Notes under the pieces: generated by a model
Seen by the model: only the letters and a program-made list of their open reading frames with translations
Database searches by the model: none
What the model was told of the DNA's origin: nothing
Virus record (IMG/VR): IMGVR_UViG_3300028829_002092
Span: 1 to 49,414 of that record
Reading direction: 5' to 3' (one strand)
Source of the DNA: a virus
DNA length: 49,414 nucleotides
Program-made: the position numbers and the translations under genes
In this document: positions 5,300-46,871 of the stretch, piece after piece
How positions within the stretch are numbered: position 1 is the first letter of the stretch
Layout of the letters: each line of letters begins with the position of its first letter

Positions 5300-5309
5300 G
5301 AGGTAGGCT

Positions 5310-5549
5310 ATGTCAGGCATGCATCATCCATTTATAAGTGATCTTTCAGACAAAAGTATTGAAGATTTGCAAGAAGCAATATCTGATCTCACTCAAAAAA
5401 TTACATTTGCACATCGCATACAAAATCAACCTATGATTAATCAACTTGATATGATTATGAACAGTTACAAAGATGAACAAAAGAAAAAATTAGATAAATT
5501 GTTTGCTGAAAAAGATATCGGCGACAATATTCATGTAGATAGGAAATAG
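5310..5549 (+). CDS. Small conserved-type protein, function unknown
   Basis: A 79-residue, mainly helical, charged protein with a predicted amphipathic helix from about residue 15 to 68 and a Lys-rich run (KKKLDK) in the second half. AGAGGT lies about 8 nt upstream of the ATG. It follows a fibre gene by 10 nt and precedes the next gene by 1 nt, so all three are probably cotranscribed. I recognise no domain. A small chaperone or assembly factor for the fibre is possible, but this is only a guess from position. Confidence 0.6.
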   Translation: MSGMHHPFISDLSDKSIEDLQEAISDLTQKITFAHRIQNQPMINQLDMIMNSYKDEQKKKLDKLFAEKDIGDNIHVDRK

Positions 5550-5550
5550 C

Positions 5551-6123
5551 ATGAGTACCAGAATCGAAAGAGATTTAGGCTTTGCAACTGCAATACACTT
5601 TGCAGATACTTTCGTACTTAATGAATATCTTATGACTCTTTCTATGCTAGTAGAAACAGAGGACATTACAGAACAAAATATTGCTTTAGACAGATTACTA
5701 CATTTTGTTGGGTATATATTGAACAATTGTATTTTTATTAATTCAGAAAACATATCAGCAATTAAAAAATATAAAAATGCAGGTATTAGAGTATGTGTTT
5801 TACCTGATGAACCATTCGATCAAATTATTTCTATGGCACTATTACAAAAATTTAATTCTATTTGCGAAGGAAGAATCAAAGTTACAGATTGTACACTAAG
5901 TTCTAACTTAAGTGAAGGAGTTCGTTTTTGTACAATTTCAGAAATAGTAGAAACCAATATAGACCAAGATCATCATAAGTGGTGGAACTGTAATACATTA
6001 TGCATTGAACACTCTGAACCAATAACAGATGATAATAACATTGTCAAATTATTTTCCAATGATGAGTGGGAAAAACTATCACTCAACTTTGGTAAAAAGG
6101 GTAAAAAATCTACCAACAATTGA
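5551..6123 (+). CDS. Hypothetical protein
   Basis: A 190-residue soluble protein with mixed helix and strand and six Cys residues not arranged as an obvious metal site. It ends in a Lys-rich tail (GKKGKKSTNN). The ATG at 5551 follows AGGAAATAGC. I recognise no family. It is the last gene of the structural run, because a separate promoter-like sequence follows before 6169. Confidence 0.6.
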   Translation: MSTRIERDLGFATAIHFADTFVLNEYLMTLSMLVETEDITEQNIALDRLLHFVGYILNNCIFINSENISAIKKYKNAGIRVCVLPDEPFDQIISMALLQKFNSICEGRIKVTDCTLSSNLSEGVRFCTISEIVETNIDQDHHKWWNCNTLCIEHSEPITDDNNIVKLFSNDEWEKLSLNFGKKGKKSTNN

Positions 6124-6133
6124 ACCTTTTTAC

Positions 6134-6161
6134 TTGTATATCACATATATTAATGTATAAT
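6134..6161 (+). promoter_or_regulatory. Possible sigma70-type promoter, leaderless
   Basis: A perfect TATAAT (6156-6161) lies 7 nt before the ATG at 6169. The best -35 candidate, TTGTAT (6134-6139, 16-bp spacer), is weak. There is no Shine-Dalgarno between the -10 and the ATG, so transcription would start at or next to the start codon. Confidence 0.5.
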
Positions 6162-6168
6162 AAACTTT

Positions 6169-6675
6169 ATGATTAACGATTACTATGGCTGTCCTATCTA
6201 TACTGAACGAGATTTAGTAGATATCTATATGAAGAATCCCAGTCAAGGTCTACAAAATACATTTACTGACACAAAGATAGAAATAAGTCCTGAGTTAGAA
6301 ATTAAGAATGTTCCTAATCTAATAGAACATACACTAGCACAAATGTCAGTTGCAGATTTTGATGAAGAAATGAGAAGTAAATGGCACATGCCTCAAAAAT
6401 ATAGAGAGTTGGATATTGCTAAATGGTTATTAGAACAATGTAAACATGAAGAAGAATTTCAACGTGTAGGTAAAGAATTATTATTGTATCAAAAACGAGG
6501 ACAGTTCTTGCTATTACAGTATATGAAGTATCTTGTAGATTTAATGAGAGAACATAATATTGTATGGGGTGTCGGAAGAGGATCTAGTGTATCAAGTTTT
6601 GTTTTGTTTTTGATCGGCATTCACCGTATAAATAGTTTATATTACGACTTAGATGTCGAAGAATTTTTAAAATAG
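6169..6675 (+). CDS. DnaE (Pol III alpha)-like fragment lacking the catalytic aspartates
   Basis: Residues ~97-168 follow the palm-entry segment of bacterial DNA polymerase III alpha (family C): a helix with the pattern RVGKEL...G-F-LL-YM-YLVD-MREHNI, then GVGRGSS (134-140, DnaE GPGRGSA), then L-GI-IN-L-YDL-EEFL, where DnaE has ITDIDPLEF-L-FERFL. The protein stops at residue 168, just before the region in which DnaE has its PDxDxD catalytic aspartates, so polymerase activity is not expected. The N-terminal ~95 residues are unrecognised. The motif match is visible; the role is unknown. It might bind the host clamp or polymerase subunits, or act as a decoy. Start chosen as the ATG directly after a TATAAT. 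Confidence 0.6.
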   Translation: MINDYYGCPIYTERDLVDIYMKNPSQGLQNTFTDTKIEISPELEIKNVPNLIEHTLAQMSVADFDEEMRSKWHMPQKYRELDIAKWLLEQCKHEEEFQRVGKELLLYQKRGQFLLLQYMKYLVDLMREHNIVWGVGRGSSVSSFVLFLIGIHRINSLYYDLDVEEFLK

Positions 6676-6684
6676 GAAAACATT

Positions 6685-7356
6685 ATGGGAAGAATATATA
6701 AAACAGCAAGAGGAAAATCATTAGACATGGCGTCTTTGATTGCAAGACAAGAAAAGACCCGTGCTGTTAGTAATATCAATGCAATTAATTCTCGTGGAGA
6801 TGAAATTGATCAAGCAGGGAATGTGGTAAGACCTAATACTCAAAGAGTTGCAGATTCTTATGCATCACAAGTAGGAACACAGGGTGCAGTAACTTTACAA
6901 GATCGTCCTGAAAATCCTAATCTTAGTAAAAGTGCTAATCCAAATGCGCCATTGTCTCCTAAGCAAAAGAGAGAACTTGAAGCATTAGAATCAGGCAAAA
7001 TAGAAAAAGAAGAAGCAGTTGAAACTCCTATGCTAGATAAATTAGTAGAAGAATCAAAACCTCAACCGCAAGAAAGTGTTGAACCAGTAGCAGAAGTGGC
7101 GCAAGAAAGTGTAGAAGAATATGTAGCACCTATTGAAGCAGAGATTGCTCCTATTCCCCCGGTAGAGCCTGAAGAATTCACAATGAAATCAGCAGACGAG
7201 GCACCAGATAGTTTTCCAGCAGAAGGTGAACTTCATCCTGAAGAGGCTGAACTAGCAGACCTTGAAGAAGACTTTGACATTGAAGCAATTAAGAAAGCGG
7301 CACTAGAAAATTACAAAGCAGAAAAACCAAAATCCAAAAAGAAGGGTAAAAAATAA
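6685..7356 (+). CDS. Acidic, mostly disordered protein of unknown function
   Basis: A 223-residue protein. Residues 1-60 (MGRIYKTARGKSLDMASLIA) look like the conserved part; the middle and C-terminus are Glu/Pro/Val-rich and probably disordered, ending in a basic tail (KPKSKKKGKK). Similar N-termini occur in T4-like marine phages as unnamed conserved proteins (from memory). AGGAAA precedes the ATG and the gene abuts the GroES gene with no gap, so the two are likely cotranslated. A scaffold or virion role is possible but unproven. Confidence 0.6.
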   Translation: MGRIYKTARGKSLDMASLIARQEKTRAVSNINAINSRGDEIDQAGNVVRPNTQRVADSYASQVGTQGAVTLQDRPENPNLSKSANPNAPLSPKQKRELEALESGKIEKEEAVETPMLDKLVEESKPQPQESVEPVAEVAQESVEEYVAPIEAEIAPIPPVEPEEFTMKSADEAPDSFPAEGELHPEEAELADLEEDFDIEAIKKAALENYKAEKPKSKKKGKK

Positions 7357-7734
7357 ATGGCAATAGGACTTAAATCTAATATTAATCGTATACATTGTAA
7401 ATCATTGAGAGCAATCAGTGATAAGATTATTGTACATGGCATGGAGTTCGGTGGACAAACACTAGACTCTGGTATTATTTTAGTAGATGATGATAAAAAG
7501 TCTACAGGCATCAAACCTAGATGGGCACAAGTATACTCTATCGGTCCACAAGCAAATACTGAACTTAAAGAAGGACAATATGTAATGGTAGCACATGGTC
7601 GTTGGACACGTGGTATTAACATTACAGACGAAGAAGGGGATAAAACAATTCGTTGTGTTGACCCAAAAGATTGCTTGTTAGTAAGTGATGAACCACAGTC
7701 TAACATGGCATACGGAGATAAAGAAGGAGCATAG
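7357..7734 (+). CDS. GroES/gp31-like co-chaperonin
   Basis: A 125-residue protein with the Cpn10 fold pattern: ISDKIIVHGMEFGG near residues 20-34, then SGIILVDDD (the family GGIILP region), a mobile loop stretch, VYSIGPQA (family VVAVGPG), LKEGQYVMVAHGRWTRG (family V.GD.Vlf..y.G). T4 gp31 replaces host GroES so that GroEL can fold the capsid protein; this protein may do the same with the host GroEL. It has N- and C-terminal extensions beyond a ~95-residue Cpn10, as phage versions often have. The start abuts the stop of the previous gene. Confidence 0.75.
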   Translation: MAIGLKSNINRIHCKSLRAISDKIIVHGMEFGGQTLDSGIILVDDDKKSTGIKPRWAQVYSIGPQANTELKEGQYVMVAHGRWTRGINITDEEGDKTIRCVDPKDCLLVSDEPQSNMAYGDKEGA

Positions 7735-8278: not shown

Positions 8279-9202
8279 ATGAAGAATCAGTTGTGGGTAG
8301 AAAAGTATCGTCCTAAAACAGTAGACGGTTATGTTTTTACTGATGAAAATCAAAAGAATCAAGTAGAAAACTGGATTAGTGAAGGAAGTTTCCCTCATCT
8401 ATTAATGTCAGGTGACCCGGGTACTGGTAAAACAACACTAGCAAAATTGCTTATACATGAGTTGGGTGTTGAAGAATATGATGTGCTAACGATCAATGCT
8501 TCACGTGAGAATGGTATAGACATGCTACGTGAAAAGATCAATGGCTTTGTGCAGACTATGCCGTTTGGCAAGTTCAAGGTGGTGTTGTTAGACGAGGCTG
8601 ACTATTTAACTCAGCCCTCGCAGGCAGCCTTAAGAAATGATATGGAGTCATACCATGAGACTGTAAGATACATTCTCACATGTAATTATGCCCATAAGAT
8701 CATTCCTGCACTTAAGTCTCGTTGTCATCAATATCATATTGCTAAGCCTGATATGACAGAGTTTACTGCAAGAGCGGCAACTGTCTTAGTCACAGAAACT
8801 GTCGAGTTTGAATTAGATGTTTTAGATACATATGTTCGTGCAACTTATCCTGACTTACGTAAGTGTCTCAATCAATTGCAAGTAAACAGCGGCTCTGGCG
8901 CTCTCAGGGCCCCTCAGAGTGAAGGCCAGAGTGAAGATGAACTCTTAGTCGAAGCAACAAACTTGTTTAAAAGCGGTAAATTAATCGAAGCAAGACAACA
9001 ATTGATGCAATATATCGCATTGTATCCTACTAGAATCGAAGATACATATCGTTGGATGTATGATAACTTAGACTTGTTCGGTGCAAGTAATGAAGAACGT
9101 GATGCAAACATCATTGTTATTAGAAATGGTCTTGCTAATCTGCCTTTAGTAGGTATCCCTGAGATATCATTGGCCGCAACTTTAGTTGAGTTGACTTCTT
9201 AA
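8279..9202 (+). CDS. 44: Clamp-loader large subunit, gp44-like AAA+ ATPase
   Basis: A 307-residue AAA+ protein with the start typical of clamp loaders (LWVEKYRPKTVDGYV), Walker A GDPGTGKT (45-52), Walker B VVLLDEAD (101-108) and the SRC arginine-finger motif (147-149). The length is close to T4 gp44 (319). With gp62 it loads gp45 onto primed DNA for gp43. gp45 and gp43 are near the other end of this window; gp62 is not seen here. It has its own consensus promoter after a terminator. One oddity: codons at about 8886-8936, in the linker between the ATPase and the C-terminal collar, are GC-rich and form an inverted repeat. Confidence 0.92.
   Translation: MKNQLWVEKYRPKTVDGYVFTDENQKNQVENWISEGSFPHLLMSGDPGTGKTTLAKLLIHELGVEEYDVLTINASRENGIDMLREKINGFVQTMPFGKFKVVLLDEADYLTQPSQAALRNDMESYHETVRYILTCNYAHKIIPALKSRCHQYHIAKPDMTEFTARAATVLVTETVEFELDVLDTYVRATYPDLRKCLNQLQVNSGSGALRAPQSEGQSEDELLVEATNLFKSGKLIEARQQLMQYIALYPTRIEDTYRWMYDNLDLFGASNEERDANIIVIRNGLANLPLVGIPEISLAATLVELTS
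8893..8931 (+). repeat. GC-rich nested inverted repeat inside gene 44
   Basis: CTCTGGC (8893-8899) pairs perfectly with GCCAGAG (8925-8931). Inside it, CTCTCAGGG (8901-8909) pairs with CCCTCAGAG (8911-8919) with one mismatch. The segment is much more GC-rich than its surroundings and encodes a low-complexity linker (SGSGALRAPQSEGQSED). Confidence 0.55.
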
Positions 9203-11733: not shown

Positions 11734-11776
11734 CGGGCAAATTACTGTTGACTTTCATACGTATGGCTGTTATAAT
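11732..11776 (+). promoter_or_regulatory. Strong sigma70-type promoter of dnaJ with upstream box, leaderless
   Basis: TTGACT (11748-11753), 17-bp spacer, TATAAT (11771-11776). The ATG of dnaJ is 5 nt after the -10, with no Shine-Dalgarno. AACGGGCAAAT (11732-11742) lies 5 nt upstream of the -35; nearly the same box occurs before the promoters at 42388 and 49074. Confidence 0.75.
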
Positions 11777-42713: not shown

Positions 42714-43339
42714 TGCCAAGACTTGTCACGTTTGGATGTTCATTTACATACGGTCACAGTTTATCTGATTGTTATATAGGAAATGGACGTCCTGGTGATT
42801 CACCTAGTAAGTTTGCTTGGCCAAATCTATTAGCAGAAAAGTTAAATTATGAATGTTTAAATTTATCTGCTTGTGGTTCAGGTAATTATCAAATTTTACT
42901 AGATATTTTACGAACAGATTTTGAACAAGATGATTTAGTTGTAATAGGATATTCATATTTTGATAGATATGAAAATTACCTAATGACTGATAAAATTGAT
43001 GCAGGTTTTCTAATAACTTCAAAGTCTAAAGAACTTAAACATAGAATAGAAACCAATAAAGTTATGTTAGGTGAGACAAGTGAAGAACAAAAGTTCTGGA
43101 ACAATTGGTTATCCATACAACATGCAGAAATGATATTAAACTCTAAAAATATAAAAAATTATTCGTTTCTCAATGTGCCGGAAATAGCACTAGAAACGAA
43201 ACCTGACTTGATCGAAATGCAAAACTTTATCGATCATATCAATTTAAACTTTAAGGATTATGCTTTGGACAATGAACACCCTGGAATTAAGACTCATCAG
43301 TTGCAATCAGAACAACTTTATAGTATAATAGCACTATGA
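42713..43339 (+). CDS. SGNH/GDSL hydrolase-like protein
   Basis: A 208-residue protein. The start MPRLVTFGCSFTYGHS has the block I shape of SGNH hydrolases, with S in GCSFTYG at the nucleophile position; block III is suggested by ACGSGNYQ (GxxN) and block V by DNEHPGIKTH (DxxH, here D-N-E-H-P). Family members are esterases and acyltransferases acting on lipids and sugars. The gene overlaps both neighbours. Phage versions can deacetylate surface sugars or modify glycans; the substrate is not readable. Confidence 0.6.
   Translation: MPRLVTFGCSFTYGHSLSDCYIGNGRPGDSPSKFAWPNLLAEKLNYECLNLSACGSGNYQILLDILRTDFEQDDLVVIGYSYFDRYENYLMTDKIDAGFLITSKSKELKHRIETNKVMLGETSEEQKFWNNWLSIQHAEMILNSKNIKNYSFLNVPEIALETKPDLIEMQNFIDHINLNFKDYALDNEHPGIKTHQLQSEQLYSIIAL
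43301..43329 (+). promoter_or_regulatory. Sigma70-type promoter of the DNA polymerase gene, leaderless
   Basis: TTGCAA (43301-43306), 17-bp spacer, TATAAT (43324-43329). The ATG at 43336 is 6 nt after the -10 and there is no Shine-Dalgarno. The promoter lies inside the 3' end of the SGNH gene. Confidence 0.6.
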
Positions 43340-46136: not shown

Positions 46137-46871
46137 ATGAAAGATAACTTATTAGACATCATCGGTTACACGCATAGTCTAGGCATCATTGATCTAGTAA
46201 AGATCGTGGGAACTGATACAGAAACTGAGATTCATGCAATTGCAGAAGATAAATCTGTTATTGTAACAGGCAAAACTAAAACGCCAGTTGCAGATTTTAT
46301 CGGAACGTTTGGTATGCCGAATCTGACTAAACTAAAAACTATTTTAGGCTTTGATGTCTATAATGATGATAGTGCTGAAATCGATATGACGAAAGCAAAC
46401 AAAGATGGTAATGAAATACCTAGTGCAATTCACTTTGCAACTAAGCAAGGAGACTTTGTTAATGACTATCGTTTGATGTCACAAGCAATCATTGAAGAAA
46501 AAGTAAGAAATGTTACTTTCAAAGGTGCTAATTGGGACGTAGAATTTGAACCAACAGTTGCAGGTATCATGCGTTTGAAAATGCAGGCACAGGCAAACTC
46601 TGAAGAATTGAACTTTACTACTAAAACAGAAGACGGCGATCTTAAAATCTTCTTTGGTGATCCTTCAACTCACTCAGGTAACTTTGTGTTTCAACCTACT
46701 GTAACAGGAGAACTTACTAGAGCATGGATGTGGCCTGTTAAAGTATTCTTGTCTATTATGGATTTGCCAGGTGATAAAACTGTGCGTATCTCTGATCAAG
46801 GTGCGGCTCAAATTACAGTAGACAGTGGTTACACAGTTTACGAATATCTATTACCAGCACAAGCCAAGTAA
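46137..46871 (+). CDS. 45: Sliding clamp, gp45-like
   Basis: A 244-residue protein. Size and layout (two similar beta-alpha-beta halves; MKDNLLDIIGYTHSLGIIDL at the start and WPVKVFLSIMDLPGDKTVRI in the second half, ending in YTVYEYLLPAQAK) fit T4 gp45 (228 residues), the trimeric clamp that tethers gp43 and also activates T4 late transcription with gp33 and gp55. The neighbouring gp43 gene and its own ribosome site GAGGAG support the call. The late promoters in the window would be its targets if the T4 late system is kept. Confidence 0.8.
   Translation: MKDNLLDIIGYTHSLGIIDLVKIVGTDTETEIHAIAEDKSVIVTGKTKTPVADFIGTFGMPNLTKLKTILGFDVYNDDSAEIDMTKANKDGNEIPSAIHFATKQGDFVNDYRLMSQAIIEEKVRNVTFKGANWDVEFEPTVAGIMRLKMQAQANSEELNFTTKTEDGDLKIFFGDPSTHSGNFVFQPTVTGELTRAWMWPVKVFLSIMDLPGDKTVRISDQGAAQITVDSGYTVYEYLLPAQAK

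Follow-up and report, generated by a model that had tools for sequence, protein, structure and literature searches.

Why would a T4-type phage that brings its own family B DNA polymerase also carry a piece of a bacterial replicative polymerase that ends just short of the active site? The question is raised by an open reading frame (ORF) at positions 6169–6675 (plus strand, 168 residues, ATG start) in 49,414 nucleotides of viral DNA, positions 1–49,414 of the IMG/VR record IMGVR_UViG_3300028829_002092. This whole stretch, which is a genome fragment, is referred to below as the window. An earlier note, made from the sequence alone, had described the ORF as a DnaE fragment without its catalytic part and had suggested a role in interaction or interference with the host replisome. 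The family B polymerase (PolB, gp43 type) is indeed encoded by the same phage (positions 43336–46050, plus strand). As for the ORF, our analysis leads to a different answer. It is very likely the N-terminal, nucleoside triphosphate (NTP)-binding half of a minimal two-protein family C (Pol III alpha-like) nucleotidyltransferase of T4-related, mostly jumbo-sized phages. We refer to this protein as the N-half and to its proposed partner as the C-half.

DnaE homology and end point of the N-half

The relationship of the ORF to DnaE is borne out by profile searches. The Pfam model DNA_pol3_alpha matches with an E-value of 1.1e-9 and 38.7 bits (curated cut-off 23.9), its positions 16–94 of 260 covering residues 89–167 of the ORF (positions 6433–6669, plus strand), a segment homologous to the DnaE palm. 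NCBIfam Pol III alpha models give E-values down to 2.6e-8, with the matched span running from residue 18 or 48 to residue 167, and the profile of PHROG 11127, labeled 'DNA polymerase', matches at E 5e-40 up to its last position (171/171). Relatives of the N-half were found at 54 IMG/VR loci. The family profile matches Pol III alpha sequences of the PDB with an E-value of 5e-4, and its profile–profile score against DnaE is 47.3, whereas 60 column-shuffled controls reached 23.4 at most. Judged by these sequence comparisons, the window ORF is a genuine relative of family C polymerases, far above chance. In the alignment, its loop GVGRGSSVSS (residues 134–143, positions 6568–6597, plus strand) is the counterpart of GPGRGSAAGS, and the GxGRGS motif is invariant in all 28 N-half sequences.

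The C-terminus of the protein, DVEEFLK (positions 6652–6672, plus strand), aligns with LFERFL of DnaE, directly ahead of the place where the PDxDxD block would begin. This clean end, pointed out in the earlier note, is conserved across IMG/VR relatives, isolate phages and PHROG 11127. In 27 aligned proteins (the window ORF and 26 IMG/VR relatives) the stop lies 1–6 residues past EFL/EFM, the counterpart of FERFL, and in 25 of them it is exactly one residue past this motif; in five isolate phages the distance is 1–3 residues. The N-half is also under purifying selection (ratio of nonsynonymous to synonymous substitution rates, dN/dS, about 0.07–0.10 against the closest relatives). Its DnaE-like part is the slowest-changing and most conserved region, and the gene is present in all nine genomes or contigs compared. 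Because the stop position is shared, dN/dS is low and the DnaE-like part changes least, the end point is, as far as sequences can tell, a selected feature, and the intact frame was correctly taken as a sign of selected function rather than decay.

That the ORF is a decaying remnant of a captured host DnaE gene might be argued from the extent of clear homology, only about 7% of the full DnaE length, and 'truncated' was the CBB paper's term for the protein (PMC5259590). However, the low dN/dS, the same end point in diverged phages, the conserved promoter and gene order described below, and the presence in every genome or contig compared refute decay, leaving it a probability close to nil. No remains of the catalytic block, frameshifted or otherwise, were found in the downstream DNA or in the whole window; the next ORF, which starts 9 nucleotides past the stop, is conserved and unrelated.

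The catalytic part as a separate gene

The missing part was sought by comparing profiles of 96 ORF families of phage 121Q, each with homologues in at least two other compared records, against DnaE. Besides the N-half itself, which ranked first, a single family gave a notable match. This C-half corresponds to PHROG 11778, likewise labeled 'DNA polymerase', with a typical length of about 190–210 residues (185–232 among 80 C-half loci); the C-half nearest to the window matches PHROG 11778 at E 6e-55. Its profile–profile score against DnaE is 38.3, compared with a maximum of 28.7 in 60 column-shuffled controls, and the Pol III alpha model TIGR00594 is matched by 23 of 34 members (best E 8.7e-6). 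Only family-profile comparison brought the partner to light: a phmmer search with E. coli DnaE against the ORFs of 121Q and of contig G004 gave no match, nor did the fingers model PF17657 against nine genomes, the C-half being too divergent.

The C-half begins with M-(P)DIDIDF, followed by KHxxGV, KxDxLN, IRPxK and FKKxHAxxY in the same order as in DnaE. The nearest upstream Met lies 1–5 residues ahead of the first Asp in 144 of 159 C-half ORFs. Between DxDxD and KHxxGV there are about 24 residues, compared with about 103 in DnaE. Counterparts of E. coli D401, D403, D405, H511, K553, D555, R639, P640, K758, H760 and Y764 are invariant. All three catalytic Asp residues (D401, D403 and D555) are therefore found not in the window ORF but in the partner C-half of its relatives. 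Since the N-half ends and the C-half begins in the same palm loop, the break between the two proteins is, by alignment, a fission point within one palm loop. Natural fusions of the two were not observed, as none of the 80 C-half ORFs is long enough to include an N-half, and the sequence retrieved on either side of these 80 loci (up to 10 kb) contains no N-half.

AlphaFold models were obtained for the N-half (28 sequences in the alignment, pLDDT 84.3) and the C-half (34 sequences, pLDDT 88.8, pTM 0.77). In Foldseek searches the top five PDB matches of the N-half model were all Pol III alpha (probability 0.54–0.93, E 0.13 or worse), as were the top two of the C-half model (probability 0.95 and 0.85, TMq 0.50 and 0.46). 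Among viral proteins with a name, the C-half model matched family C-type DNA polymerases of phages best (probability about 1). The structure comparison with DnaE proposed in the earlier note thus placed Pol III alpha first for both halves, with PDB E-values (0.06–0.13 at best) that are non-significant by themselves; we give weight to the ranking because it agrees with the sequence evidence.

The two genes also occur together. Of the records with an N-half, eight reach at least 220 kb, and each of them also has the C-half; of the seven C-half records that reach at least 195 kb, five have the N-half. Among isolate phages the genus counts for the two are nearly identical; in the E. coli phage 121Q the halves are genes 56 and 16. 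The C-half profile has no match over the entire 49 kb window, because the expected place of the gene lies about 40 kb beyond the left end. This place is indicated by contig G009 (89.4 kb), the closest relative that reaches far enough to cover the C-half. Its N-half is 88% identical to that of the window, and it is colinear with the first 11.6 kb of the window at 85–89% DNA identity. The C-half of G009 is located at 52138–52707 (minus strand), a place some 40 kb outside the window on its left side, and the spacing between the N-half and the C-half in the window's lineage is about 46 kb. Two related contigs, G004 (128 kb) and G009 (89 kb), overlap each other over only about 17.6 kb, which suggests that phages of this lineage have genomes of some 200 kb or larger.

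In the window's lineage the start of the C-half overlaps the stop of a DEDD exonuclease gene (Rv2179c-like, PHROG 255) by ATGA. A DEDD exonuclease is encoded at 79 of the 80 closest C-half loci, nearly always immediately upstream. The C-half of phages 121Q and PAC2 has UvsY/UvsW genes on one side and primase/helicase genes on the other. The genes after the C-half in G009, around 51–53 kb (L370:676-2609), are a short one and one that looks by eye like peptide deformylase.

The separate catalytic gene undercuts the role suggested in the earlier note, namely that of a truncated DnaE mimic aimed at the host, binding or poisoning parts of its replisome. The N-half is short and devoid of the catalytic Asp residues, and the phage has its own PolB, all of which would suit such a mimic; yet the same genomes encode a dedicated catalytic half. 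Across phages of Escherichia, Pseudomonas, Agrobacterium, Sinorhizobium and Vibrio it is the nucleotide-binding loop, not the tail, that is most conserved. A near-invariant loop of this kind in phages of very different hosts points to an enzyme half rather than a host decoy. Moreover, the N-half belongs to a conserved core cassette together with a clamp loader and a co-chaperonin. We consider a host-directed factor improbable.

Predicted assembly and activity of the two halves

As members of one enzyme, the N-half would supply the GxGRGS loop with its preceding helices, while the C-half would bring the DxDxD strand along with the third catalytic Asp and a short fingers region. Judging from homology to family C and Pol beta-type enzymes, the GxGRGS loop would hold the phosphates of the incoming nucleotide. 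The halves are predicted to fold together into one palm, with the thumb and PHP absent, such that only the pair would make an active site. The result may be a small polymerase or gap-filling enzyme working beside PolB. We favor the role of a second polymerase that would serve one strand, gap filling or repair, the neighboring exonuclease being a putative proofreader; in the window's lineage the pair probably works with the DEDD exonuclease encoded beside the C-half.

Several observations weigh against this proposal. The Arg of FERFL (E. coli R390), kept in all 81 DnaE sequences compared (all gammaproteobacterial), is replaced by Glu165, which is invariant in 28 of 28 N-halves. The thumb, PHP, the clamp-binding part and most of the fingers are missing. 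Two records, G042 (280 kb, the record of L299) and G048 (199 kb, the record of L313), have the C-half and no N-half detectable even at E 10; they may be fragments, may have a very divergent N-half or may have truly lost it. The C-half of the window's own phage is outside the fragment at hand, the structural matches have the non-significant E-values given above, and the association and activity of the halves are themselves predictions. In view of the invariant Glu in place of the FERFL Arg, polymerase activity of the predicted pair is plausible, not assured.

The same replacement, together with the absence of the thumb, PHP and clamp-binding part, would fit halves that do assemble but make no normal DNA polymerase: their product might be a nucleotidyltransferase that is specialized or inactive, or a subunit with a structural or regulatory part in the PolB replisome. 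However, the three metal-binding Asp residues and the GxGRGS, KxD, RP and KxHxxxY residues are all invariant, suggesting retained chemistry. The coupling of the C-half to an exonuclease in the window's lineage and its position between UvsW/UvsY and primase/helicase genes in isolates speak in the same direction. We regard a non-polymerase pair as rather unlikely, albeit to be reckoned with. The two-protein enzyme remains the preferred reading. Its most far-reaching version is that these proteins of about 170 and 190 residues, held together non-covalently, form a working family C polymerase smaller than any other known, without thumb or PHP and with an acidic residue where FERFL has Arg, and that this second polymerase, equipped with its own exonuclease, serves in a PolB replisome. 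We put this forward tentatively, at somewhat less than an even chance.

Genomic context and relation to known enzymes

The promoter assigned to the N-half in the earlier note is probable. A sigma70-type sequence, TTGTAT-16-TATAAT (positions 6134–6161, plus strand), ends 7 nucleotides before the ATG, and the N-half of the window's lineage has no Shine-Dalgarno sequence. Support for the promoter comes entirely from comparison between relatives: a sigma70-type site (at least 9 of 12 matching positions, ending 5–12 nucleotides before the start codon) precedes the N-half in 16 of 24 relatives, compared with 36 of 1304 ATGs in the window (2.8%). A generic sigma70 scan of positions 5300–7400 found sites no more numerous than in shuffles and missed the N-half promoter. 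Isolates such as 121Q, PAC2 and Atu_ph07 differ in that their N-half overlaps the upstream gene. Within the window, the genes for the N-half, DnaJ (promoter at 11748–11776) and PolB (43301–43329) all have sigma70-type promoters with 9–11 of 12 positions matching, ending 5–7 nucleotides before the ATG, and lack a Shine-Dalgarno sequence. Diverged relatives show this pattern ahead of the N-half, and G004 and G001 show it ahead of DnaJ. These arrangements suggest that the N-half, DnaJ and PolB mRNAs are leaderless or near-leaderless.

The conserved cassette consists, in order, of the N-half, a small protein, a GroES-like protein and a gp44-like clamp loader. The second gene (positions 6685–7356, plus strand) encodes a conserved protein with a weak match to PHROG 14844; its Shine-Dalgarno sequence AGGA overlaps the N-half stop codon, and the order is the same in isolates. 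It is followed by the GroES-like co-chaperonin (gp31 type, 7357–7734, plus strand) and the clamp-loader ATPase (gp44 type, 8279–9202, plus strand), both syntenic neighbors conserved in isolates. A probable sliding clamp (PHROG 12062, unnamed; 46137–46871, plus strand) is putatively identified as gp45 from its position beside PolB. Upstream of the N-half, a 190-residue ORF at 5551–6123 has no Pfam or PHROG match; several giant phages have an unnamed gene of about this size ahead of the N-half.

The phage pair shares with bacterial DnaE and PolC (e.g. E. coli DnaE) the GxGRGS loop, the helices preceding it and, across the halves, the order of catalytic motifs. It differs in being encoded by two genes, in lacking the PHP, thumb, clamp-binding and OB parts, in its total size (about 360 residues compared with 1160) and in the Glu that replaces the FERFL Arg. 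A family C polymerase made from two distant genes is also known in cyanobacteria, where the halves of the split DnaE are joined by split inteins. In contrast, the phage halves end at the break and leave no room for an intein, so that non-covalent assembly would be expected.

Closest to our case are the T4-related 'group 2.2' jumbo phages, reported to have a minimal Pol III alpha besides PolB (Iyer et al. 2021, PMC7824862). That enzyme was described as split into an N-terminal NTP-binding protein and a C-terminal Mg- and template-binding protein encoded by distant genes, and cooperation with PolB was suggested. An N-half with a GRGS loop that ends before DxD, and PolB, are both found in the window, and we see nothing essential that differs. 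The split enzyme was thus already proposed in 2021, and the window protein adds another N-half to that kind. To this we add the exact fission point, both PHROG families, whose labels are silent on their being halves of one enzyme, the FERFL Arg-to-Glu replacement, the exonuclease coupling, the spacing of about 46 kb and the leaderless-type promoter. No experiments on the two-protein pair were reported in the literature searched.

A puzzling 'fragment' thereby becomes half of a predicted enzyme, and the second gene to seek now has a name. With two small proteins of an E. coli phage, the idea put forward in 2021 that giant phages have a second, minimal Pol III can now be tested directly. If active, the pair would reveal how far a family C catalytic core can be reduced and divided, and would mean that a T4-type replisome includes a polymerase of bacterial type.
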